From the NCBI RefSeq assembly GCF_021026315.1, contig NZ_JAJNCX010000008.1, positions 62,001 to 126,000 on the forward strand: a stretch of DNA of 64,000 bases, in the 5' to 3' direction. The translations under genes and the position numbers were made by a program. The notes beneath the pieces were generated by a model. It was not told the DNA's origin and searched no databases. It saw nothing but the letters and a program-made list of their open reading frames with translations. Within the stretch, counting starts at the first letter, position 1; the number at the start of each line of letters is the position of its first letter. Below, one piece after another: positions 19,064-28,681 of this stretch. Source of the stretch: Rhizobium sp. C4 (lineage in GTDB: Bacteria > Pseudomonadota > Alphaproteobacteria > Rhizobiales > Rhizobiaceae).

Positions 19064-21001
19064 TTAGTTCAGGCCGCGCGTCTTCAGCCAGGCTTTTGTC
19101 AGCCCTTCAAACCTTGCAGCCATATCGGCGATCGCCGCCTCGTCGTCCATCTTGCCGCCAAGCCACTGGCGCGCCGCATCCGCAAAGATCGTCCGACCAA
19201 CCGCGAAACCCTTGACCGAAGGCGCGACCAATGTCGCGGCAAAGGCCTTTTCCAGCTCCGCCGCCGGGGCTTCGAGCCCGAGAAGCACGATGCCACGGCA
19301 GAAGGGGTCGTTTTCGGCAATCACGGCCTCGATCTTGCCCCAAGCGATTTCGGAGGCCTGCGGCTCCAGCTTCCACCAGTCCGGCTTGATGCCGAGATCG
19401 TAGAGCTCGCGAAGCGCGGTCGCAATGGTGTCGTCGGTGAGCGGGCCATTCTTGCCGGCGATGATCTCAACCAGCAATTCGCGGCCAACCTTGCGGGCGG
19501 CATCGAACAGCGCGCGCAGCTTTTCCTGCTGCTCGGCCTTGAGAGCTGCCGGATCATCAGGATGGTAGAAGCAGAGGCACTTGATGCAATGCTCAACCGG
19601 CCAGGCAACAAGCTGCGAGCCGATATCCTGCGAGAATTCGAATTTCAGCGGCTTGGAGCCCGGCAGTTCCACCGGACGGCCGATCCATGAGAAATTCTGC
19701 TTCATCGCATCAAAGAAGGCATCGCGGCCGAAGCGCTCGTCAATCAGCATGCCATAGCCCGGACGCCCCTTGGCGACGCGGGCGGCAGCGGCCACGGCGA
19801 GGCGCTTGAAGGCGGGAATGCGTGTCTCCGGCACGTTGAGTTCGCGGGCGACGTCGACCAGCTGCGACCGGTGGTCGATGGCGAGCGCCATCAGCAGCGG
19901 GATCTCGCCGGCAATGCGCGTCGTTGCCCAGTGGACGTGGTTGAGGTCGGCATCCTTGCGCAGCGCATGTTCCTTGCTGCCATGCTTGAGGAAATATGTG
20001 AGCTCGGTGAAGGTCGGGATTTCCGGCGAGCAGAGCAGGCGCGAGACGGCAAAGGCGCCGCAGGCATTCGCCCAGGTCGCCGAGGTCTGATGCTCCTCGC
20101 CGCGCAGCCAGCCGCGCAGGAAACCGGACATGAAGCTGTCTCCAGCGCCGAGCGTATTATAGACCTCGATCGGGAAGCCCTGCCCCACGATCCCCTGGTC
20201 CAGATCGTCCGGGATCGTCCCGTCATAGACGATGCAACCCATCGGCCCGCGCTTGAGCACGATTGTGGCGGACGATGAGGCACGGATCGCTTTGAGCGCG
20301 GCCAGAAGATCGGCCTCACCAGAGGCGATCAGCACTTCCTCTTCCGTGCCGACAATGAGGTCGCATTCGGCGAGAACCGGCTTAAGGCGATTGGAAACGG
20401 CGTCCGAGGCAATATAGCGCTCCTCGCCCGCCCGGTGGCCGGCAAGGCCCCAGAGGTTCGGGCGATAGTCGATATCGAAGATTACCTTCGCGCCGTTTGC
20501 CTTGGCGATGCGGATCGCCTTCTTCTGTGCGGCTTCGGTGTTCGGCTTCGAAAAATGCGTCCCCGTGACCAGCACGGCGCGGGCGGACTTGATGAAATCC
20601 TCGCTCACATCCTCTTCCGCAATCGACATGTCGGCGCAGTTTTCGCGATAGAAGATGGTCGGGAAGGTCTTGTCGTTCTCGACGCCGAGGAGAACCAACG
20701 CGGTCAGCCGCGTCGGATCGGTCTTGATTCCTCGCGTCTCCACGCCCTCGCGGGTCAGATGTTCCTTGATGAAGGAGCCCATCTGCTCGTCGCCAACGCC
20801 GGTGATGATCGCCGATTTCAGCCCCAGCCGCGCCGTGCCGATGGCGATATTGGCCGGGCAGCCGCCGACAGAGCGGGCAAAGCTCACCGTGTCTTCGAGA
20901 CGCGCGCCGATCTGCTGGCCGTAGATGTCGACGGAGGAGCGGCCGATGGTGATGACATCGAGTTCAGCCTCAGGCTTGAAGCCCGGATCAAGGCGCGGCA
21001 T
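19064..21001 (-). CDS. iolC: Bifunctional 5-dehydro-2-deoxygluconokinase / DUF2090 aldolase-like protein
   Basis: 645 residues from the ATG at 21001, with GGAGG five bases upstream (a GTG at 21013 overlaps that site). Residues about 1-325 are a PfkB-type sugar kinase: SVDIYGQQIGARLEDTVSFARSVGGCPANIA and the catalytic GAGDSFMSGFLRG. Residues about 340-645 form a TIM-barrel of the DUF2090 type related to the IolJ aldolase (FKFEFSQDIGSQLVAW, KCLCFYHPDDPA, PDWWKLEP, VGRTIFADAARQWL). It would phosphorylate 2-deoxy-5-keto-gluconate and possibly cleave it. The fusion is common in proteobacteria. The IolR box at 21082-21095 lies upstream. Confidence 0.95.
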   Translation of the reverse strand: MPRLDPGFKPEAELDVITIGRSSVDIYGQQIGARLEDTVSFARSVGGCPANIAIGTARLGLKSAIITGVGDEQMGSFIKEHLTREGVETRGIKTDPTRLTALVLLGVENDKTFPTIFYRENCADMSIAEEDVSEDFIKSARAVLVTGTHFSKPNTEAAQKKAIRIAKANGAKVIFDIDYRPNLWGLAGHRAGEERYIASDAVSNRLKPVLAECDLIVGTEEEVLIASGEADLLAALKAIRASSSATIVLKRGPMGCIVYDGTIPDDLDQGIVGQGFPIEVYNTLGAGDSFMSGFLRGWLRGEEHQTSATWANACGAFAVSRLLCSPEIPTFTELTYFLKHGSKEHALRKDADLNHVHWATTRIAGEIPLLMALAIDHRSQLVDVARELNVPETRIPAFKRLAVAAAARVAKGRPGYGMLIDERFGRDAFFDAMKQNFSWIGRPVELPGSKPLKFEFSQDIGSQLVAWPVEHCIKCLCFYHPDDPAALKAEQQEKLRALFDAARKVGRELLVEIIAGKNGPLTDDTIATALRELYDLGIKPDWWKLEPQASEIAWGKIEAVIAENDPFCRGIVLLGLEAPAAELEKAFAATLVAPSVKGFAVGRTIFADAARQWLGGKMDDEAAIADMAARFEGLTKAWLKTRGLN

Positions 21002-21081
21002 GCGGTCCTCCACGTTCTGTTTTATCGACCGTCAGGTCGCTTGCGGCGGATGAAACACAAAAGCCATTAAGTTGTCAATTC

Positions 21082-21095
21082 GGAATTTATATTCC
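21082..21095. promoter_or_regulatory. IolR box in the iolR-iolC gap
   Basis: GGAATTTATATTCC matches the GGAA-N6-TTCC palindrome reported for IolR of Sinorhizobium meliloti exactly. It lies 81 bp upstream of the iolC ATG and 5 bp past the iolR stop. An additional half-site (TTCC at 21104-21107) follows. This suggests a second, IolR-repressed promoter for iolCDEB. Confidence 0.7.
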
Positions 21096-21099
21096 AAAT

Positions 21100-21978
21100 T
21101 TATTCCGCGTCATTCTGTTGATGCCGGCGATATTCCGCAATGCCAACAGAGAGCGCCATGGTCAGCGCCATCGAGGCCGAGAGCGAGCGAAACCCGGCAA
21201 AATCGGCCTCCGCCACCTCGAACCAGAGGGTGGAAATGGAGGCGAGCGGCGAGAAGGCGGAATCGGTGATGGAGACTAGCGGCACACCTTGGGCGTGGAG
21301 CGCGCGGGCATGGTCCAGGCTTTCGGCCGCATAGGGCGAGAAGGAGATGGCGAGCGCGGCATCTTCAGGCCTCGCAAACTGCACGGTTTCCAGATCCACG
21401 CCATTGGTCGATGCCACCATCTGGTGGCGGATGCCGAGCTTGGAGAAGGCGTAAGATAGATGCGCCGTCAGGGAGTAGGAGCGCCGCTTGGCGATCAGAT
21501 AGATCGTGTCGGCCGCGCCCAGGACATCAATGGCACGCTTGAAATCCTCCTCGCGGATTGCCTCCTCCATCTTGATAATGGACGAACGCGCGGCGCCAAA
21601 GAACCCATGCAGAAGTGCGGATTCCGGAGCGGCATCGCCGGATTTCTCGATCTGCGTCAGCCGCTCCTCATAGGAGGGCGTGCGCAGGCGCAGGCGCTCC
21701 TTGAAGATGGTCTGGAAATGCGAGAAGCCGTCATAGCCGAACTGATGCGCCAGCCGCACCAGCGTCGACGGCTGGACGGAGGCCGCCTGCGCGATGCTCG
21801 CAGCCGTGCCGAAGGCGATCTCGTCGGGATTTTCCAGCGCATAGGCTGCAGCCTGTTTCAGCCGCTTCGGCAGCTTTACGTGATTGCCGACCACCTGGGC
21901 TTTCAGGCTGTCGAAATCCGCAGGTGGCGCAGCACCCGTCTCGTTCACGTCCGGCAAATCAGTTCTCCGCGTCCCCAT
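21100..21978 (-). CDS. iolR: RpiR-family repressor of inositol genes
   Basis: 292 residues. An N-terminal HTH_6 domain (about 30-105) contains FGTAASIAQAASVQPSTLVRLAHQFGYDGFSHFQ. A C-terminal SIS sugar-phosphate-binding domain (about 130-270) contains IYLIAKRRSYSLTAHLSYAFSKLG and AISFSPYAAESLDHARALHAQGV. Position at the head of iolCDEB and opposite idhA, plus IolR-type palindromes on both sides, support the assignment. The likely inducer is a phosphorylated inositol catabolite. Confidence 0.92.
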   Translation of the reverse strand: MGTRRTDLPDVNETGAAPPADFDSLKAQVVGNHVKLPKRLKQAAAYALENPDEIAFGTAASIAQAASVQPSTLVRLAHQFGYDGFSHFQTIFKERLRLRTPSYEERLTQIEKSGDAAPESALLHGFFGAARSSIIKMEEAIREEDFKRAIDVLGAADTIYLIAKRRSYSLTAHLSYAFSKLGIRHQMVASTNGVDLETVQFARPEDAALAISFSPYAAESLDHARALHAQGVPLVSITDSAFSPLASISTLWFEVAEADFAGFRSLSASMALTMALSVGIAEYRRHQQNDAE

Positions 21979-21986
21979 CCAATGAT

Positions 21987-22000
21987 GGAATATTTATGCC
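21987..22000. promoter_or_regulatory. Near-match IolR box before iolR
   Basis: GGAATATTTATGCC differs from GGAA-N6-TTCC at one position and sits 9 bp upstream of the iolR start codon. It would permit autorepression. Confidence 0.5.
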
Positions 22001-22086
22001 AAAAATGGAATTCAGCAACTGCCTCTTCCAAAATTGATGAGAGACCCGTTGTTTGAGGCGAGACATTCCTTTATGACCCTTGAAAT

Positions 22087-22100
22087 GAAATCTTCGTTCC
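22087..22100. promoter_or_regulatory. Near-match IolR box before idhA
   Basis: GAAATCTTCGTTCC keeps the 6-base spacing and TTCC half of the IolR consensus with one mismatch in the other half. It lies 85 bp upstream of idhA. Confidence 0.45.
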
Positions 22101-22184
22101 AGTCGGATCGGCAGTTCCACAAAGGCCTGTTGTGGCTTTCGATGGAATCGCGGCAAACAAAGTGACTATTTCGGGAGCACACTC

Positions 22185-23177
22185 ATGACAGTGAAATTCG
22201 GACTTTTGGGCGCAGGCCGCATCGGCAAGGTACATGCCAAGGCTGTCGCCGGCAATGCGGATGCCAAGCTGGTCGCCGTTGCCGACCCTTTTGCGGACGC
22301 CGCAAACGCCATTGCCAAGACCTACGGCTGCGACGTGCGCACGATCGAAGAGATTGAAAAGTCGGCCGATATCGATGCCGTCATCATCTGCACGCCGACC
22401 GACACCCATGCCGACCTGATCGAGCGCTTTGCCCGCGCCGGCAAGGCGATCTTCTGCGAAAAGCCGGTCGATCTGGATGTGGCCCGCGTCAAGGCCTGCA
22501 TCAAGGTGGTCGAGGAAACCAAGGGCAAGCTGATGGTCGGCTTCAACCGCCGCTTCGATCCGCATTTCATGGCCGTGCGCAAGGCCATTGCTGACGGAAA
22601 GATCGGCGCCGTCGAAATGGTGACGATCACCTCGCGCGATCCCGGCGCTCCGCCGGTAGACTATATCAAGCGTTCGGGTGGAATTTTCCGCGACATGACG
22701 ATCCACGACTTCGACATGGCCCGCTTCCTGCTCGGTGAAGAGGTGGCTTCCGTATCCGCCCATGCCGCCGTTCTGGTCGATCCGGAAATCGGCAAGGCCG
22801 GCGATTTCGACAGCGTGACCGTGATCCTGGAAACCAAGTCCGGCAAGCAGGCCGTCATTTCCAACTCGCGTCGCGCAACCTATGGCTATGACCAGCGCAT
22901 TGAAGTGCATGGCTCCAAGGGCGTCGTGTCGGCCGAAAACCAGCGCGCCGTGTCCATCGAGATCGCCAATGGCGATGGCTATACCCGCCCGCCGCTGCAT
23001 GATTTCTTCATGACGCGCTACACGGAAGCCTATGCCAACGAAATCGCCGCCTTCATCGCGGCCATCGTTGACGGCGCCGCCATCAGCCCGACCGGCACGG
23101 ATGGCCTCAAGGCCCTCCAGCTCGCCGACGCAGCACTTGAAAGCGCCAAGACCGGCAAGCGCGTGTCGCTCGCCTGA
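22185..23177 (+). CDS. idhA: myo-inositol 2-dehydrogenase
   Basis: 330 residues, a GFO/IDH/MocA-family NAD-dependent dehydrogenase. The Rossmann motif GLLGAGRIGKVHAKAV is at the N-terminus, the catalytic-lysine motif CEKPVD at about 97-102, and the C-terminal domain has GFNRRFDPHF and the GGIFRDMTIHDFDMARFLLGEE signature of inositol dehydrogenases. It makes the first step, myo-inositol to 2-keto-myo-inositol, feeding IolE. It is divergent from iolRCDEB. A strong hairpin at 23192-23220 follows. Confidence 0.95.
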   Translation: MTVKFGLLGAGRIGKVHAKAVAGNADAKLVAVADPFADAANAIAKTYGCDVRTIEEIEKSADIDAVIICTPTDTHADLIERFARAGKAIFCEKPVDLDVARVKACIKVVEETKGKLMVGFNRRFDPHFMAVRKAIADGKIGAVEMVTITSRDPGAPPVDYIKRSGGIFRDMTIHDFDMARFLLGEEVASVSAHAAVLVDPEIGKAGDFDSVTVILETKSGKQAVISNSRRATYGYDQRIEVHGSKGVVSAENQRAVSIEIANGDGYTRPPLHDFFMTRYTEAYANEIAAFIAAIVDGAAISPTGTDGLKALQLADAALESAKTGKRVSLA

Positions 23178-23191
23178 TATTCTGATTTGAA

Positions 23192-23220
23192 GGCCTGCGC
23201 GGACAAAACCCGCGCAGGCC
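23192..23220 (+). terminator. Hairpin downstream of idhA
   Basis: A perfect 11-bp GC-rich stem (GGCCTGCGCGG / CCGCGCAGGCC) with a 7-base A-rich loop, 14 bp past the idhA stop. There is no strong T-run, so it may be a message-stabilising or bidirectional terminator. Confidence 0.6.
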
Positions 23221-23233
23221 ACCAATTCCGCCC

Positions 23234-23470
23234 TCACGCTTCGCCATAGCCGCGCCGGCGCTTGGCCTTCAGCAGATGGGTGAACAAGGCCTGCGCCTCT
23301 TCGCGCCTGGCAAAATCGTGCAGCTTGACCTGCCCCCGCGTCCCGATCCGCCCCCAATGCCGCCGCAGCCGCACATCGCCGAACAATGTCGGCTCGATGG
23401 AGAGCATGTAGAAGCGCGCCATGTTTTTGTCCGCATCGCGCCGTTCCAGATAGATATCGTCGGAATTCAT
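23234..23470 (-). CDS. WGR-domain protein
   Basis: 78 residues from the ATG at 23470 (another ATG at 23476). It consists almost wholly of a WGR domain: YLERRDADKNMARFYMLSIEPTLFGDVRLRRHWGRIGTRGQ, with the name-giving WGR tripeptide near residue 42 and a basic C-terminus. Stand-alone WGR proteins are common in Rhizobiales and are inferred to bind nucleic acid. The molecular role is unknown. It is convergent with idhA. Confidence 0.88.
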   Translation of the reverse strand: MNSDDIYLERRDADKNMARFYMLSIEPTLFGDVRLRRHWGRIGTRGQVKLHDFARREEAQALFTHLLKAKRRRGYGEA

Positions 23471-23610
23471 CGTCATGCGCGCAAGAGTCGCCGATCGCGA
23501 CTCCCGCGTCCAATGAGACTTATGAATCCAAGGGGTTGCACCGATTCACGGGCGTGATGCGTTGGCCTTGCGGAGACTGTCTTTCAGGGATTTTCCGGAA
23601 GCCAGAATCG

Positions 23611-23790
23611 AAAAAGCCTGCCGCGGGAGGAGGTGCGGCAGGCTTTTCGAAATTCAGAACAGCGACGGGGAGGAGGAGTGCCGCTGCTCTATTTCAGGCC
23701 CTTCGGGAGGAGAGAAGGCCTGAGCTTCGAAGCGGGCGGGAGGAGGTGCCGCGCTTCGATGAGTTCAAGATACCAAACCGCGCGGCGATC
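23611..23790 (-). ncRNA. Cuckoo-type (alpha-r14-like) small RNA with four anti-Shine-Dalgarno hairpins
   Basis: On the minus strand four consecutive hairpins each present the anti-Shine-Dalgarno motif CCTCCTCCC or a close variant in the loop: motif complements are at 23738-23746, 23705-23712 (8 of 9 bases), 23668-23676 and 23625-23633. Stems are at 23728-23758, 23695-23722, 23660-23686 and 23616-23643. The last is a 9-bp GC stem followed by five T residues, a Rho-independent terminator. This architecture matches rhizobial alpha-r14 RNAs (NfeR1 in S. meliloti, usually three hairpins) and the CcsR RNAs of Rhodobacter. The 3' end is firm; the 5' end is estimated from a possible -10 (TATAAG, 23799-23804) and could be off by tens of bases. 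Confidence 0.85.
23616..23643 (-). terminator. Rho-independent terminator of the small RNA
   Basis: A 9-bp stem (GCCTGCCGC / GCGGCAGGC on the minus strand) whose loop is itself an anti-Shine-Dalgarno motif, followed by TTTTT (23615-23611). Confidence 0.85.
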
Positions 23791-23803
23791 GCCAGCACTT
23801 ATA

Positions 23804-23836
23804 TTGCATTGCAGCCATGCAAATGCTGCATTGCAA
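23804..23836. promoter_or_regulatory. Inverted repeat upstream of the small RNA
   Basis: TTGCATTGCAG (23804-23814) is inverted against CTGCATTGCAA (23826-23836) with one mismatch and an 11-base spacer. It lies between the tetR stop and the small RNA, at the expected promoter position, and looks like an operator. Confidence 0.5.
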
Positions 23837-23862
23837 CAAAGACGGGATGGCGCAGCGGGCTT

Positions 23863-24579
23863 TCACCTGTTCGACAGCTGCAGGCCGCGCACTGTCACGG
23901 TGGCAAAGCGGGCGAGCGACTGCATCAAAGCCGGCTGCCGCTCGGGCGGTGCATGCATGATCACCATGAGATTGCTCTGCAGCGCCTCGATGAGGATGAG
24001 GCAGAAGTCCTGCATCTCGTCCGGCGTCATGGTGCCGGCAATGCGCGCCATGTAGGGCGCAATGAAGCGCGCGTTTGCTGCCGTGTCTTCCATGTCGAGC
24101 GCCCGCAGTTCCGGCACGGCGCGCAGCGCATCCCAGATCGTGGCGGTCGCCGTGCGTGAGGAAAGATAGATCGCGACATCCATCACCACCCGGCCCACCG
24201 CCTCCGGGGCATCGTCAGCCTTGATGTCCGCCTCCATGTGGCGCTCCATCGAGGAGGCGATCACGGCCTGCAATTCCGCCAGATGCTTCTCGGCGAGCGC
24301 CCTGAGCACGGCCACATTCGAGGGGAAATAGTGGTAGATCGAGGCGATCGGCAGGCCTGCCGAGCGGGCCAGTTCCCGCATCTTCAGGCCATCGAACCCT
24401 TGCGCCGTCACCAGCGCTTCGGCGGCGTCCAGCAGTTGGTCGACCCGCTCGCGGCTGCGCGCCTGCTGGCCAACGCTCCGTCGCGAAGAACGGCCTTTCG
24501 GCGCTTCCTCGGTCGCCTCGGCTTCTGCGGTCGATGGCTCATCCACTTGATTCAAAAGATCTTCCTCCAGTCGCACCAA
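23863..24579 (-). CDS. TetR/AcrR-family transcriptional regulator
   Basis: 238 residues. A charged N-terminal extension (about 1-45) precedes the TetR HTH (about 46-95): RVDQLLDAAEALVTAQGFDGLKMRELARSAGLPIASIYHYFPSNVAVL. The C-terminal ligand domain occupies about 110-225. It is divergent from the permease-monooxygenase fusion; the 105-bp gap holds two identical 15-bp direct repeats that are probable operators. It most likely represses the 24.7-32.5 kb operon in response to its substrate. Confidence 0.92.
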   Translation of the reverse strand: MVRLEEDLLNQVDEPSTAEAEATEEAPKGRSSRRSVGQQARSRERVDQLLDAAEALVTAQGFDGLKMRELARSAGLPIASIYHYFPSNVAVLRALAEKHLAELQAVIASSMERHMEADIKADDAPEAVGRVVMDVAIYLSSRTATATIWDALRAVPELRALDMEDTAANARFIAPYMARIAGTMTPDEMQDFCLILIEALQSNLMVIMHAPPERQPALMQSLARFATVTVRGLQLSNR

Positions 24580-24590
24580 ATGCTCATAAC

Positions 24591-24605
24591 TCGATCAATG
24601 CTCGA
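24591..24605. promoter_or_regulatory. TetR operator candidate 1
   Basis: TCGATCAATGCTCGA, an imperfect palindrome repeated identically at 24626-24640. It is located just before the tetR start. Confidence 0.6.
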
Positions 24606-24625
24606 CTATTGACAGCCATCAAAAA

Positions 24626-24640
24626 TCGATCAATGCTCGA
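24626..24640. promoter_or_regulatory. TetR operator candidate 2
   Basis: Second identical copy of TCGATCAATGCTCGA, 35 bp from the first and 45 bp upstream of the fusion gene. It is positioned to block its promoter. Confidence 0.6.
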
Positions 24641-24684
24641 ATTATCAATTATCCCAACATAAAACGTCAAGAGAGCGGGAGCAA

Positions 24685-27552
24685 ATGGGGATGACAGAGA
24701 CGATAGCAGCGAAATTTCCATCCACGGGAGGCAAGGAGAAGAAGAAGATTTCCACCGGACGCGTCATCGTCCTGGTAATCGCGGCGGCAGCACCGCTGGC
24801 CGCCATGGTCGGCAACACGCCGCTGGGGCTTGCGCAATCGGCGGGCCTCTCCATGCCGATCGCCTATCTGCTGGTCGGCCTCACCCTTCTTGCCTTTGCC
24901 GCCGGCTATACCGCGCTCAGCCGCGAGATCGTCAGCCAGGGTGCCTTCTACACCCAGGTCGGGCAGGGTCTAGGCCGCCCGGCCGGCGTCGTCGCCGCCT
25001 ATTGCGCGGGATTTGCCTATGCCGTCTATTCGGTCGGCATGGCCGCCGCCTTCGGCTATTTCACCTCGCTGCTCTTCCATGAGCTTGGCATCGACATTTC
25101 CTGGATGGCCATTGCCGCCGGCGGCATGGCGCTGGTCGCGATCCTAGGCTATCGGTCGCTGGATTTGTCAGCCCGCGTGCTGATGTTCTTCATGCTGGCC
25201 GAATTCGCCATCCTCTTCGTCTTCGACATCTGCGTGATTGCGCAGAAAGGTCTTGCCGCCTTCCCGCTCGAGGTCTGGTCGCTCGGCAATCTCACCAATC
25301 CCGGCATCGGCGCGGTGATCCCCTTCGTTGTCGTCTCCTTCATCGGCTTCGAGGCGGCAGCACTCTACGGCGAGGAAACGCACCAGCCCCGCCGCTCGAT
25401 CCCGCGCGCGACCTTCATCGCGCTCGGCGTCATCATGGTCTTCTACATGCTCTCCGTCTGGGTGATCATCGGCGCTGCCGGTGCCGCCGATGCGCAGGCG
25501 CTTGCGGCCAGGGAAAGCGGCAATTTCGTCTTCGCGCTCGCCCAGACCTATGGCGGCGAAGGGCTTGTCGCCGTCATGGGCCTCTTCCTCGTCGCCTCGT
25601 TCCTCGCCAGCTATCTGGCGATCCACAATGCGGCGAGCCGCTACCTCTTCGCGCTCGCCAATGACAAGCTGCTGCCCGGCGCGCTCGCCTCGATCCATCC
25701 GGATCACCATGCGCCGCATGTCGGCAGCGTCGCCATGTCGGTGCTGGAATTCCTGCTGGTCATCGGTCTCGGCCTTGCCGGTGCCTCGCCCTATGTGGGC
25801 ATTGCGTCCGGCATGATCGGGCTCGGCACGATCGGCATCATCGCCATGCAGATCGCCTCGGCGCTCGCCGTCTACGGCTTCTTCGCCCGCCTTGGCCGCG
25901 GCGGCCTCTGGGCCACGCGCATCCTGCCGCTTGCAAGTGCCGCCGTCATGACGGCCTTCCTGATTGCCATCTTCATGAGCTATGGCCAGCTGACCGGCAG
26001 CGATCTCTGGATCGTCAACCACCTGCCCTGGCTCTTCGTCCCACTGGTCGCCGCTGCCCTCCTCTATGCGAACTGGATGAAGCGCAACCGGCCGAACGCC
26101 TATGCGCAGATCGCCAGCACGTCCTATCGCTTCAACGGCGAACGGGCTGCACCCTCGGTCGCCAGCTACAAGCGCCGCTACTGCATCATCGGCGCGGGTC
26201 CGTCGGGTCTCATCATGGCGCGCGCCTTTCTGAAGGAGGGCGTTCCCTTCGACTGCTTCGAGCGCCACGGTGATGTCGGCGGCCTCTGGGACCCGGAAAA
26301 CGAAGGTACGCCGATCTATGACAGCGCACATTTCATCTCGTCGAAATGGACCTCCTATTTCTACGGCTTCCCGATGCCGGCGAACTATCCGGATTATCCG
26401 TCCGCATCCCAGATCCTCGACTATATCCGCGCCTTCACGGACGCCTATGGCCTGCGCGAGCACATCACCTTCCAGACGGAAGTGAAGAAGGCCGAACCCG
26501 AGGGCGATCGCTGGCGGGTCGAACTCGGCAATGGCGAGGTGCGCTATTATGACGGTGTCATCGCCTGCCCCGGCGTCACCTGGCATGCCAGCATGCCGAA
26601 GCTTCCGGGCGCGGAGACATTCGCCGGCGAAATCCGCCATTCGGTCAGCTATCGCTCGACGGACGAATTTGCCGGCAAGCGCGTGCTGATCGTGGGCGCC
26701 GGCAATTCCGGCGTCGACATCGCCTGCGACGCCGCCAAGCATGGGGCGAAGGCCTTCTTCAGCGTGCGGCGCGGCTATCGCTTCGTGCCGAAGCACATTT
26801 TCGGCATTCCGACCGATGTGCTGACAACCGGAAAGGCCCTGCCGCCGAAGGGCGCACCCATCATCACCGACATCAACAAGATGCTCGACACGATGAATGG
26901 CGACCTCACCCGCCTCGGCCTGCCCAAGCCCGACCACGATGCACTGTCCAGCCATCCGATCATGAACACGCAGATCCTGCACTATCTCGGCCACGGCGAT
27001 CTGATCGCCAAGGGCGACGTCAAGGGTTTCGACGGCAAGGACGTGATCTTCGCCGACGGGTCGCGCGAGGAGATCGACCTCGTGATGTTCTGCACCGGCT
27101 ACGAATACAAGCTGCCCTTCTTCGCCGACGATCTCTTCGAATGGAAGGGCGGGCGGCCGCAGCTCTATCTCAACATCCTGCATCGCAAGCAGCGCGGTCT
27201 CTACATTCTCGGCTTCACCGAGTTTGCCGATGCCGCCTATCGCCGCTTCGACGAGATGGCGCAGCTGATCCTCGCGGACGTGAATGCGACGGAGACCGGC
27301 GTCGGTCGCGCCTATCTGGACGATCTGCGCGCCCATGACCGGCCGGACCTGCGCGGCGGCAAGGTCTATCTCGATAGCCCCCGCCACGCCAATTACGTCT
27401 ACACGCCGACCTTCATCCGGCTGCTGGCAGAGCTGCGCCGCAAGCTGGGCTGGCCGGATCTCGATGACGCGAGCTATGAGGCGCTGCGCCGTCAGACCGC
27501 GACGCGCGTCCAGCCCACCGCGACCGAAGCACGCAAGGAGAACGCGGCATGA
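24685..27552 (+). CDS. Fusion: APC-family permease + flavin-containing monooxygenase
   Basis: 955 residues with GGGAG six bases before the ATG. Residues about 25-470 are an amino acid/amine permease of the APC superfamily (about a dozen hydrophobic segments; AAAAPLAAMVGNTPLGLA in helix 1; FIGFEAAALYGEETHQPRRSIPRA in the mid-region). A short linker leads to a full flavin monooxygenase: FAD motif GAGPSG (503-508), FMO fingerprint FAGEIRHSVSY (646-656, FxGxxxHxxxY, so FMO rather than Baeyer-Villiger type), NADPH motif GAGNSG (671-676), and MFCTGYEYKLPFF. The frame is uninterrupted across the junction and both halves keep their key residues. It probably imports an amine or sulfide and oxygenates it. 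The stop overlaps the SDR start. Confidence 0.9.
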   Translation: MGMTETIAAKFPSTGGKEKKKISTGRVIVLVIAAAAPLAAMVGNTPLGLAQSAGLSMPIAYLLVGLTLLAFAAGYTALSREIVSQGAFYTQVGQGLGRPAGVVAAYCAGFAYAVYSVGMAAAFGYFTSLLFHELGIDISWMAIAAGGMALVAILGYRSLDLSARVLMFFMLAEFAILFVFDICVIAQKGLAAFPLEVWSLGNLTNPGIGAVIPFVVVSFIGFEAAALYGEETHQPRRSIPRATFIALGVIMVFYMLSVWVIIGAAGAADAQALAARESGNFVFALAQTYGGEGLVAVMGLFLVASFLASYLAIHNAASRYLFALANDKLLPGALASIHPDHHAPHVGSVAMSVLEFLLVIGLGLAGASPYVGIASGMIGLGTIGIIAMQIASALAVYGFFARLGRGGLWATRILPLASAAVMTAFLIAIFMSYGQLTGSDLWIVNHLPWLFVPLVAAALLYANWMKRNRPNAYAQIASTSYRFNGERAAPSVASYKRRYCIIGAGPSGLIMARAFLKEGVPFDCFERHGDVGGLWDPENEGTPIYDSAHFISSKWTSYFYGFPMPANYPDYPSASQILDYIRAFTDAYGLREHITFQTEVKKAEPEGDRWRVELGNGEVRYYDGVIACPGVTWHASMPKLPGAETFAGEIRHSVSYRSTDEFAGKRVLIVGAGNSGVDIACDAAKHGAKAFFSVRRGYRFVPKHIFGIPTDVLTTGKALPPKGAPIITDINKMLDTMNGDLTRLGLPKPDHDALSSHPIMNTQILHYLGHGDLIAKGDVKGFDGKDVIFADGSREEIDLVMFCTGYEYKLPFFADDLFEWKGGRPQLYLNILHRKQRGLYILGFTEFADAAYRRFDEMAQLILADVNATETGVGRAYLDDLRAHDRPDLRGGKVYLDSPRHANYVYTPTFIRLLAELRRKLGWPDLDDASYEALRRQTATRVQPTATEARKENAA

Positions 27553-28367
27553 CCCGGTTCGACGGTAAGCTCGCCCTCATCACAGGGGCCGCCGGCGGCA
27601 TCGGCTCGGCAGTTGCCAGGCGCTTCCATGCGCTCGGTTTCAGGCTCATGCTGGTCGATATCGACCTCGCCCGGCTGGAAGCCAGCGCCCGGAACTATCC
27701 GGGCGCGATCCTGAAGGTTCTGGACCAGCGCGATCCCTCAGCACTCAACCGCTTCTGCGACGAGGTGATCCGCGACGGCGATTTCATCGACGTGGCGGTC
27801 ATCAATGCGGGCATGCTGGTGATCGGCGATCTCGGCGATATCACCCAACAAGGGATGCTCGACCAGCTTCAGGTGAACCTGATCAGCACCTCGATCCTGA
27901 TCCAGGCGCTGGCGCGGCGCATGACGCTCGCCCGCAAGGGTCACATCATGGCGACCGTCTCCATGGGCGGCATTGTCTCGCTCAAAGGCTCGGCCACCTA
28001 TTCGGCCTCCAAGTTCGGCGTACGCGGCCTGCTCTGGGGGCTGAAGGATGAACTCAAGCCTCATGGAGTCCACGTCACCGGCATCTATCCCGCCGGCGTC
28101 GATACGCCGATGCTGCGCCACGAGGCGATGCATGGGGGCTCCGCCCTCAACTTCGTCGGCGTGCCCGTGACGGCCGACGATGTCGCCAAGGCCTATGAAA
28201 AGGCGCTGAGCAAGCCGAAGCTTGAGGTTTACGTCCCCTATTCGGAAAGCATCACCGGCCGGATCGCCGGGGCGTTCCCCTGGTTGCTCGGCGGGCTATA
28301 TCCGACGCTCGAAAAGATGGGCGAAGCGGGGCGGAAGAAATTCCTGAAACGCATCGGGGTGACCTAG
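27549..28367 (+). CDS. Short-chain dehydrogenase/reductase
   Basis: 272 residues. The ATG overlaps the stop of the fusion gene (ATGA), so they are co-translated. Classical SDR: TGAAGGIGSAVARR (about 11-24), active-site Ser in ATVSMGGIVS, and YSASK (Tyr/Lys pair at about 156-160). The C-terminal part carries GVHVTGIYPAGVDTPML and a long amphipathic tail. Its coupling to the monooxygenase suggests it oxidises or reduces the oxygenated product. The substrate is unknown. Confidence 0.9.
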   Translation: MTRFDGKLALITGAAGGIGSAVARRFHALGFRLMLVDIDLARLEASARNYPGAILKVLDQRDPSALNRFCDEVIRDGDFIDVAVINAGMLVIGDLGDITQQGMLDQLQVNLISTSILIQALARRMTLARKGHIMATVSMGGIVSLKGSATYSASKFGVRGLLWGLKDELKPHGVHVTGIYPAGVDTPMLRHEAMHGGSALNFVGVPVTADDVAKAYEKALSKPKLEVYVPYSESITGRIAGAFPWLLGGLYPTLEKMGEAGRKKFLKRIGVT

Positions 28368-28681
28368 ACCACCCTTCAACATCGGGTCACCCAAGGGGGC
28401 GTCTCATCGCCCCCTTTCTTGCGCCTACCTTCCTCCTTAACGATCCTGTCCGAAAAAACATCGGTCCCCACTGAACGGATCGGCTCCCGCCAACGTATCC
28501 ACTCCTGACAATCTTTGGCAGCAAGGCGGTTTACGAAGAATCTGACGCAGACGGCAGCTGCCCTGGAACCTTGGCGGCCGCCATCCATTTTCATCAACGT
28601 AAGCCACAAGACTGAAAACGATCGGGACAGACGCTGCATCGGCCCTCGGACGCCGGCAGCCGTGAGAGGAAGGGAAGAAAC
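28368..28681. other. Intergenic region with terminator and leader of the osmoprotectant-type importer
   Basis: 314 bp. A terminator-like hairpin at 28393-28420 follows the SDR. The rest is a leader ending in the purine-rich ribosome-binding site AGAGGAAGGGAAG of the binding-protein gene. No further gene is visible, so the importer may also have its own promoter here. Confidence 0.5.
28393..28420 (+). terminator. Rho-independent terminator after the SDR
   Basis: The stem AAGGGGGCG / CGCCCCCTTT with loop TCTCAT is followed by CTT. It lies 26 bp past the SDR stop. Confidence 0.65.

Follow-up and report, generated by a model that had tools for sequence, protein, structure and literature searches.

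An APC-type permease fused to a flavin monooxygenase in Rhizobium sp. C4 and other Alphaproteobacteria

The DNA analysed here, called the window below, is a stretch of 64,000 nucleotides from Rhizobium sp. C4 (contig NZ_JAJNCX010000008.1, positions 62,001 to 126,000). Its forward strand holds a single stop-free open reading frame of 955 amino acids, in which a permease of the APC superfamily is followed, without change of frame, by a flavin monooxygenase (FMO). The fusion gene is preceded by a divergent gene for a TetR-family regulator and overlaps at its end with a gene of the short-chain dehydrogenase/reductase (SDR) family; the coordinates are collected in Table 1. An earlier note on this DNA had described the uninterrupted passage from permease to FMO, had placed three motifs in the second half, and had argued that neither artefact nor decay was involved. 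The frame was borne out, both domains being found by Pfam, and the motif positions proved exact.

Table 1. Features of the fusion gene and its surroundings (window positions; residues of the 955-residue protein)
Feature	Position	Strand	Basis or remark
APC permease-FMO fusion gene	24685..27552	+	single open reading frame, Pfam domains
APC permease half, residues 1-460, 12 predicted transmembrane segments	24685..26064	+	PF13520, hydropathy, charge bias
Linker, residues 461-496, length kept to within 1 residue across 8 fusions	26065..26172	+	
Flavin monooxygenase half, residues 497-955	26173..27552	+	PF00743, PDB relatives 8z12-8z17
FAD-binding GAGPSG, residues 503-508	26191..26208	+	motif scan
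FMO fingerprint FAGEIRHSVSY, residues 646-656	26620..26652	+	motif scan
NADPH-binding GAGNSG, residues 671-676	26695..26712	+	motif scan
DLVMFCTGYEYKLP, resembles TGY signature of N-hydroxylating flavoenzymes (weak evidence)	27076..27117	+	pattern scan
Cassette of 4.6 kb, inserted when compared with sister species	23841..28453	.	BLASTN against G014, G117
TetR-family regulator, divergent from fusion	23863..24579	-	PF00440, E 3e-12
Operator-like 15-mer, copy 1	24591..24605	.	direct repeat; similar site, 2-3 mismatches, at matching place in T29, G237, G1097
TTGACA, candidate -35 box between operator-like copies	24609..24614	+	between both sites in all four own-family loci; promoter role inferred
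Operator-like 15-mer, copy 2	24626..24640	.	direct repeat; similar site, 1 mismatch, in T29, G237, G1097
SDR-family oxidoreductase	27549..28367	+	PF00106, E 5e-37; 4-base overlap with fusion gene end

Both Pfam matches exceed their gathering thresholds. AA_permease_2 (PF13520) spans residues 26-441 and takes up positions 5-417 of its 427-position profile (E 8e-26, 91.4 bits for a threshold of 27), and 12 hydrophobic peaks are predicted from hydropathy between residues 27 and 459. FMO-like (PF00743) spans residues 497-845 and takes up positions 2-371 of a 532-position profile (E 8.8e-55, 186.6 bits for a threshold of 22); the last third of this profile is unmatched, yet in length the FMO half equals its unfused relatives from bacteria (about 440-470 amino acids).

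The fused gene was recovered in nine genomes, given here under our own labels: the window, G237, G1097, T29, G1030, G1452, G1480, G1525 and G1540. Three copies besides that of the window come from its own family (T29, G237 and G1097, 67-70% identical to the window fusion) and five from a second alphaproteobacterial family, f115 (49-52%). Whole genomes were searched for a match across both halves in samples that overlap and were drawn from larger groups. Such a match was found in one of six genomes of the genus, in the window and G237 among 297 of the family, in 2 of 63 from the genus of G237 (G237 and G1097), in the window only among 397 of the order, in the window and G1030 among 385 of the class and again among 398 of the phylum, in 5 of 149 of f115, the family of G1030, and in G1030 only among 279 from its order. 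A match at 1e-40 was present in 193 plasmid records, a single one of which holds at least 80% of the protein. It belongs to Agrobacterium sp. T29, one of the Rhizobiaceae, where the fusion lies on a conjugative plasmid of 451 kb and is annotated only as "amino acid permease". Since full-length fused homologues exist in G237, G1097, the T29 plasmid and five f115 genomes, the comparison of sequences confirms that the fusion gene is real, and not due to chance or to a sequencing slip.

One of the nine copies, that of the draft genome G1525 (L139 447-3296), carries an in-frame stop within the FMO half and is either a pseudogene or the result of a draft-assembly error. It was excluded from alignments and trees. 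Among the eight intact copies, the length of the junction differs by at most one residue, the first helix reads APLAAMxGNxP, and the FAD and NADPH motifs are present in all. Two ways of splitting the gene were considered and rejected. Production of a separate FMO from an internal start finds no support in the linker ATG (M465), which is aligned with a methionine in G1030 only among the seven other intact copies, and no ribosome site was seen there by eye. A match in G1030 flagged with one stop, as if two adjacent genes were present, is in fact one frame of 943 amino acids, the stop being its end.

Selection on the two halves was estimated from ratios of nonsynonymous to synonymous substitution rates (dN/dS). 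Between G237 and G1097 the values were 0.066 for the permease, 0.119 for the linker and 0.054 for the FMO, and between the window and G1097 they were 0.295, 0.657 and 0.208, the other wide pairs being close to saturation at silent sites. By this measure both halves are under purifying selection. In pairwise comparison of the intact fusions, the FMO half was the more conserved of the two in 27 of 28 cases. A tree of the permeases placed the eight intact fused rows in one clade (support 99/98). A first FMO tree of 61 rows, then with five fused rows, gave the latter a support of 67/55. For the second, L095 (a very long branch) and all rows below 43% identity except four outgroups were left out, and L141 and L142 were added; the eight fused rows then formed a clade (100/99) together with the FMO of R. 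erythropolis R138, the sole unfused row inside it. A single origin of the fused FMO rows is neither shown nor rejected (approximately unbiased test, p 0.348). Because the permease of R138 falls outside the fused permease clade although its FMO falls inside the other, we leave the R138 arrangement among three readings: it may be the pre-fusion state, a later split, or a separate pairing.

The genomic setting extends this picture. What the earlier note had proposed stood as far as a real, intact and conserved fusion is concerned, and missed that the gene forms, with TetR and SDR, a cassette inserted in the genome. Compared to sister species, the window holds an extra 4.6 kb. With BLASTN, G014 aligns with the window from 21000 to 23840 and again from 28454, and G117 to 23841 and again from 28472, about 50 bp lying between the two blocks in each genome. 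The same neighbours are separated by 254 bp in G187; G245 keeps the left side, with the right-hand gene on another contig, and G293 has only a diverged idhA (50%), with no match on the right. Given the empty site of G014 and G117, the segment is most simply read as an insertion in the window lineage, loss in the sisters being a less simple alternative. Composition does not mark it as foreign, because its third-position G+C (0.81-0.83) overlaps that of five neighbours (0.76-0.84). To the left lie inositol-type genes and to the right an ABC transporter; both belong to the old neighbourhood and tell little of the function of the cassette. About 110 bases from the insertion point, which is upstream of it, lies ar14, a known alphaproteobacterial small RNA (Rfam RF02344, 92.3 bits, 23609-23729, minus strand); the non-coding segment 23593-23840 is about 93% identical to G014 and G117, for 83-87% in its flanks.

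A TetR gene was found in 8 of the 9 fusion cassettes and an SDR gene in 7 of 9; these partner counts are lower bounds, neighbours at fusion and unfused FMO loci having been called by BLASTP against a small reference set. In the family of the window the genes run TetR, fusion, SDR, and in f115 they run TetR, SDR, fusion, so that the association does not depend on one inherited order. The window TetR is 44-46% identical to those adjoining the fusions of T29, G237 and G1097. Between TetR and fusion, all four loci of this family carry two copies, 34-35 bp apart, of an operator-like unit, a 15-bp partial palindrome. Mismatches to the window unit (copy 1/copy 2) are 0/0 in the window, 2/1 in T29, and 3/1 in both G237 and G1097, the first site of G237 having 2 if read on the other strand. 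The unit was first spotted by eye and by a repeat search, then scanned at up to 4 mismatches without a shuffled control, G1030 being the only f115 genome scanned. It was not found in G1030 nor in the unfused loci G233, G997 and G917 at this threshold, and no further copy exists in the 64-kb window at up to 2 mismatches.

The SDR of the window has no PDB match at 1e-25. In T29 the SDR gene is followed by one for a PF13557 protein, and in G1097 by that of a 62% identical relative; we take proteins of this family to be outer-membrane channels. Some 3 kb upstream of the T29 cassette (L040 5947-8399) are genes for a haem-dependent oxidative N-demethylase (HODM)-like protein, DmmA and a reductase, with another TetR adjoining. 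The G1097 fusion has, within 8 kb, a class III aminotransferase and a carnitine-dehydrogenase-like gene (252.6 bits, below the cut-off of 414). The genes near both fusions fit amine catabolism, but are separate units.

Loci of unfused relatives were inspected for each half. Eleven unfused permease loci on plasmids were considered, that of R138 and 10 picked by hand from the 35 permease-type rows among 40 listed. All except the one of R. qingshengii (10 of 11) have an amine-processing, aminotransferase or N-oxidation gene nearby, by a criterion that is loose and was set after the gene lists had been inspected, on a small sample in which L094 and L096, both of the VlmB type, are close copies. 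The genes concerned encode tyramine oxidase (Phyllobacterium; its subunit B in Gemmobacter), class III or aspartate-type aminotransferases (Phyllobacterium included), a VlmB-like protein together with a flavin reductase (4 loci), nitronate monooxygenase (R138 and L093 included) and a pyridoxal-dependent decarboxylase. An APC permease akin to the fused one is part of each of the Streptomyces plasmid clusters L093, L094, L096, L145 and L148, alongside the VlmB-like protein in four of them and nitronate monooxygenase in L093. In valanimycin biosynthesis, according to PMC11705231, the two-component flavin monooxygenase VlmH/VlmR makes the N-hydroxylamine (the N-isobutylhydroxylamine step) and VlmB acts later, toward the azoxy group. 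One permease group would therefore be tied to flavin-dependent oxygenation in two ways, by the VlmB and flavin reductase neighbourhoods in Streptomyces and by fusion in Alphaproteobacteria.

For the FMO, 22 unfused loci were compared, the flanks covered being of unequal length; an SDR gene directly adjoins the FMO in 8 and a TetR or AraC gene adjoins in 11. Divergent regulator-FMO-SDR units, in which the unfused FMO is 44-54% identical to that of the window, directly adjoins the SDR and has a TetR or AraC gene beside it, occur in G233, G614, G637, G997, G917, G819, G686 and B. ambifaria CF3; nothing in the flanks covered there matches this permease. Overall, 21 of the 22 loci lack such a match, R138 being the exception. 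The earlier note would have given up the fusion had relatives consistently encoded two separate genes, which is not the situation in these loci nor in the nine fused genomes. On the R138 plasmid (pCRE138), an FMO 55% identical to the fused half shares its cluster with an APC permease and an SDR, as in the window; it differs in that the genes are separate, the permease (34% identical) is about 4 kb away, and the SDR has no match to that of the window. AMP-binding, enoyl-CoA hydratase and aldehyde dehydrogenase genes also belong to this cluster.

As to the reaction, the closest solved relatives of the FMO half are 8z12-8z17 (227 bits for 8z16), which share with it the FAD and NADPH motifs and the FxGxxxHxxxY fingerprint; they are named only "Flavin-dependent monooxygenase", and no paper was found for 8z12/8z16. 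The window FMO is unlike these solved proteins in being the C-terminal half of a 12-helix permease, and we know of no solved FMO with an attached transporter. Baeyer-Villiger fingerprints end in W(P/D), unlike that of the window, which ends in Y. Under one pattern, a signature resembling the TGY one of N-hydroxylating flavoenzymes matched all 5 fused rows compared and 6 of 56 unfused ones, which is weak evidence. A text search of PMC7347517 gave none of the strings "ATGY", "FATGY" and "fingerprint". A scan of genome contigs returned two remote FMO relatives (25-27%).

For the permease half by itself, phmmer gave no match in the PDB at 1e-6. A profile of the eight fused permease halves matched solved APC chains, best 7p9u, a cystine/glutamate transporter (E 5e-14), and also 5oqt ("Amino acid transporter"). 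The even loops contain 18 lysines and arginines, the odd loops only 2, and the tail that precedes the FMO 5. Following the positive-inside rule, this bias predicts that both permease termini, hence the FMO, are cytosolic; FAD and NADPH are located in the cytosol as well.

The explanation that we favour, with a confidence that is about evenly balanced, is that of a bifunctional membrane protein in which an FMO that oxygenates nitrogen is attached to an importer of amines, the SDR taking over the next step, all in a portable cassette controlled by TetR. A complete 12-helix APC importer would carry on its cytosolic C-terminus a complete FAD- and NADPH-dependent monooxygenase. The permease would import, most likely, a small organic amine, the nitrogen of which would be oxygenated by the tethered FMO at the cytosolic mouth, and the neighbouring SDR would oxidise or reduce the product. 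The divergent TetR repressor would bind the two 15-bp sites around the promoter until relieved by the substrate, and the three genes may travel together as a catabolic, or detoxifying, cassette. The earlier note had suggested that oxygenation could accompany the entry of a substrate into the cell, which is plausible because the FMO is predicted to be cytosolic and the permease relatives have amine-type neighbourhoods; channelling between the halves would be a guess. A bolder form of the proposal, which we consider doubtful, is a transporter-oxygenase whose permease would hand its substrate directly to the FMO, N-oxygenation with NADPH and O2 trapping it inside and pulling uptake. This would amount to metabolic group translocation, encoded by a mobile TetR-controlled cassette. 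No other oxygenase doing so came up in narrow phrase searches of open-access PMC or is otherwise known to us.

Several observations weigh against the amine importer and N-oxygenase proposal, in addition to the looseness of the neighbour criterion and the position of the R138 permease outside the fused clade. Identity between the fused half and its unfused permease relatives reaches only 34-41%, and specificity shifts readily among APC proteins. The fingerprint is complete in 6 of the 8 intact fusions, its final residue being H in G1452 and G1540, and the FMO half failed the cut-offs of both trimethylamine monooxygenase (NF058570, 109.8 bits for 675) and ArsO (NF040505, 119.8 bits for 425). The linker dN/dS reached 0.657 between the window and G1097. 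AlphaFold, run on the single fusion sequence without alignment, gave a mean pLDDT of 37.3 and no domain arrangement. A consensus promoter scan of the gap between TetR and fusion returned no promoter on the plus strand, and only a minus-strand site within chance. Neither TetR nor SDR is near the G1540 fusion, and G1525 has TetR directly upstream with no SDR in between; its contig ends 446 bases downstream of the fusion, and an SDR on that side is possible. Finally, the SDRs of T29, G237 and G1097 (L040, L047, L081) share only 38-39% identity with that of the window, far below the 67-70% of the fusions, for which reason we suspect that the SDR may have been exchanged.

Among the alternatives, the one that survives best, though we find it rather unlikely, is that the fusion only fixes the stoichiometry and location of an importer and an FMO that act, without hand-over, on a non-amine substrate, which might be an organosulfur, aromatic or keto compound. 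FMOs oxygenate nitrogen, sulfur and sometimes carbon, the PF13557 family encountered after the SDR of T29 and G1097 is named for phenol degradation, the additional R138 genes listed above would fit, and the rarity of this permease at unfused FMO loci (21 of 22 without it) indicates that the FMO can work on its own. The amine or N-oxidation genes near 10 of the 11 unfused permeases nevertheless point to amines. Improbable, in our estimation, is a detoxification induced through TetR, in which a toxic compound would be modified by the FMO in the cytosol, the product then being exported or exchanged by the permease. Many APC proteins are exchangers, and genes of the resistance type would be expected to be under TetR control, to sit in a small insertion and to occur, as one copy does here, on a conjugative plasmid; against this reading stand the SDR partner, which is better suited to utilisation, and the amine oxidase, aminotransferase or N-hydroxylation genes near unfused permeases. 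We consider it very improbable that the FMO half, instead of being a working enzyme, senses redox state or substrate and gates the permease: transporters with regulatory C-terminal domains are known, but the FAD and NADPH motifs are intact in the eight fusions, the FMO half is the better conserved one in nearly all pairs, and the SDR directly adjoins unfused FMOs too (8 of 22 loci). An assembly artefact, a frameshift or a decaying chance fusion, for which rarity (one of six species of the genus) and the in-frame stop of one copy in nine could be cited, is treated as refuted by nine genomes in two families, the near-identical junction length and low dN/dS.

Transporters joined to enzymes, such as SulP-carbonic anhydrase and PnuC-NadR, combine uptake and the first enzymatic step in one chain, a layout that the window fusion shares. 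As in that class, both domains are in one gene and have been kept as one, in nine genomes of which one has the in-frame stop. The permease domain is a whole one of the APC superfamily (PF13520), with the difference that an enzyme is attached to it. We know of no transporter-enzyme fusion that joins an oxygenase to a secondary transporter. The earlier note likewise knew of no described system, and narrow phrase searches of open-access PMC gave no description of the architecture; a search of the same kind for the SulP-carbonic anhydrase comparison found nothing either. While the class is already known, the joint between a secondary transporter and an oxygenase thus appears to be new, the first that we are aware of.

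The two halves are ordinary and their joint is unusual, in that a natural and conserved protein compels uptake and oxygenation to share a single chain. This makes hand-over of a substrate from a transporter to an oxygenase testable by cutting the linker. It also shows how annotation can hide the enzyme half, as with the "amino acid permease" of T29. For an uncharacterised permease clade, the fusion supplies a partner enzyme.

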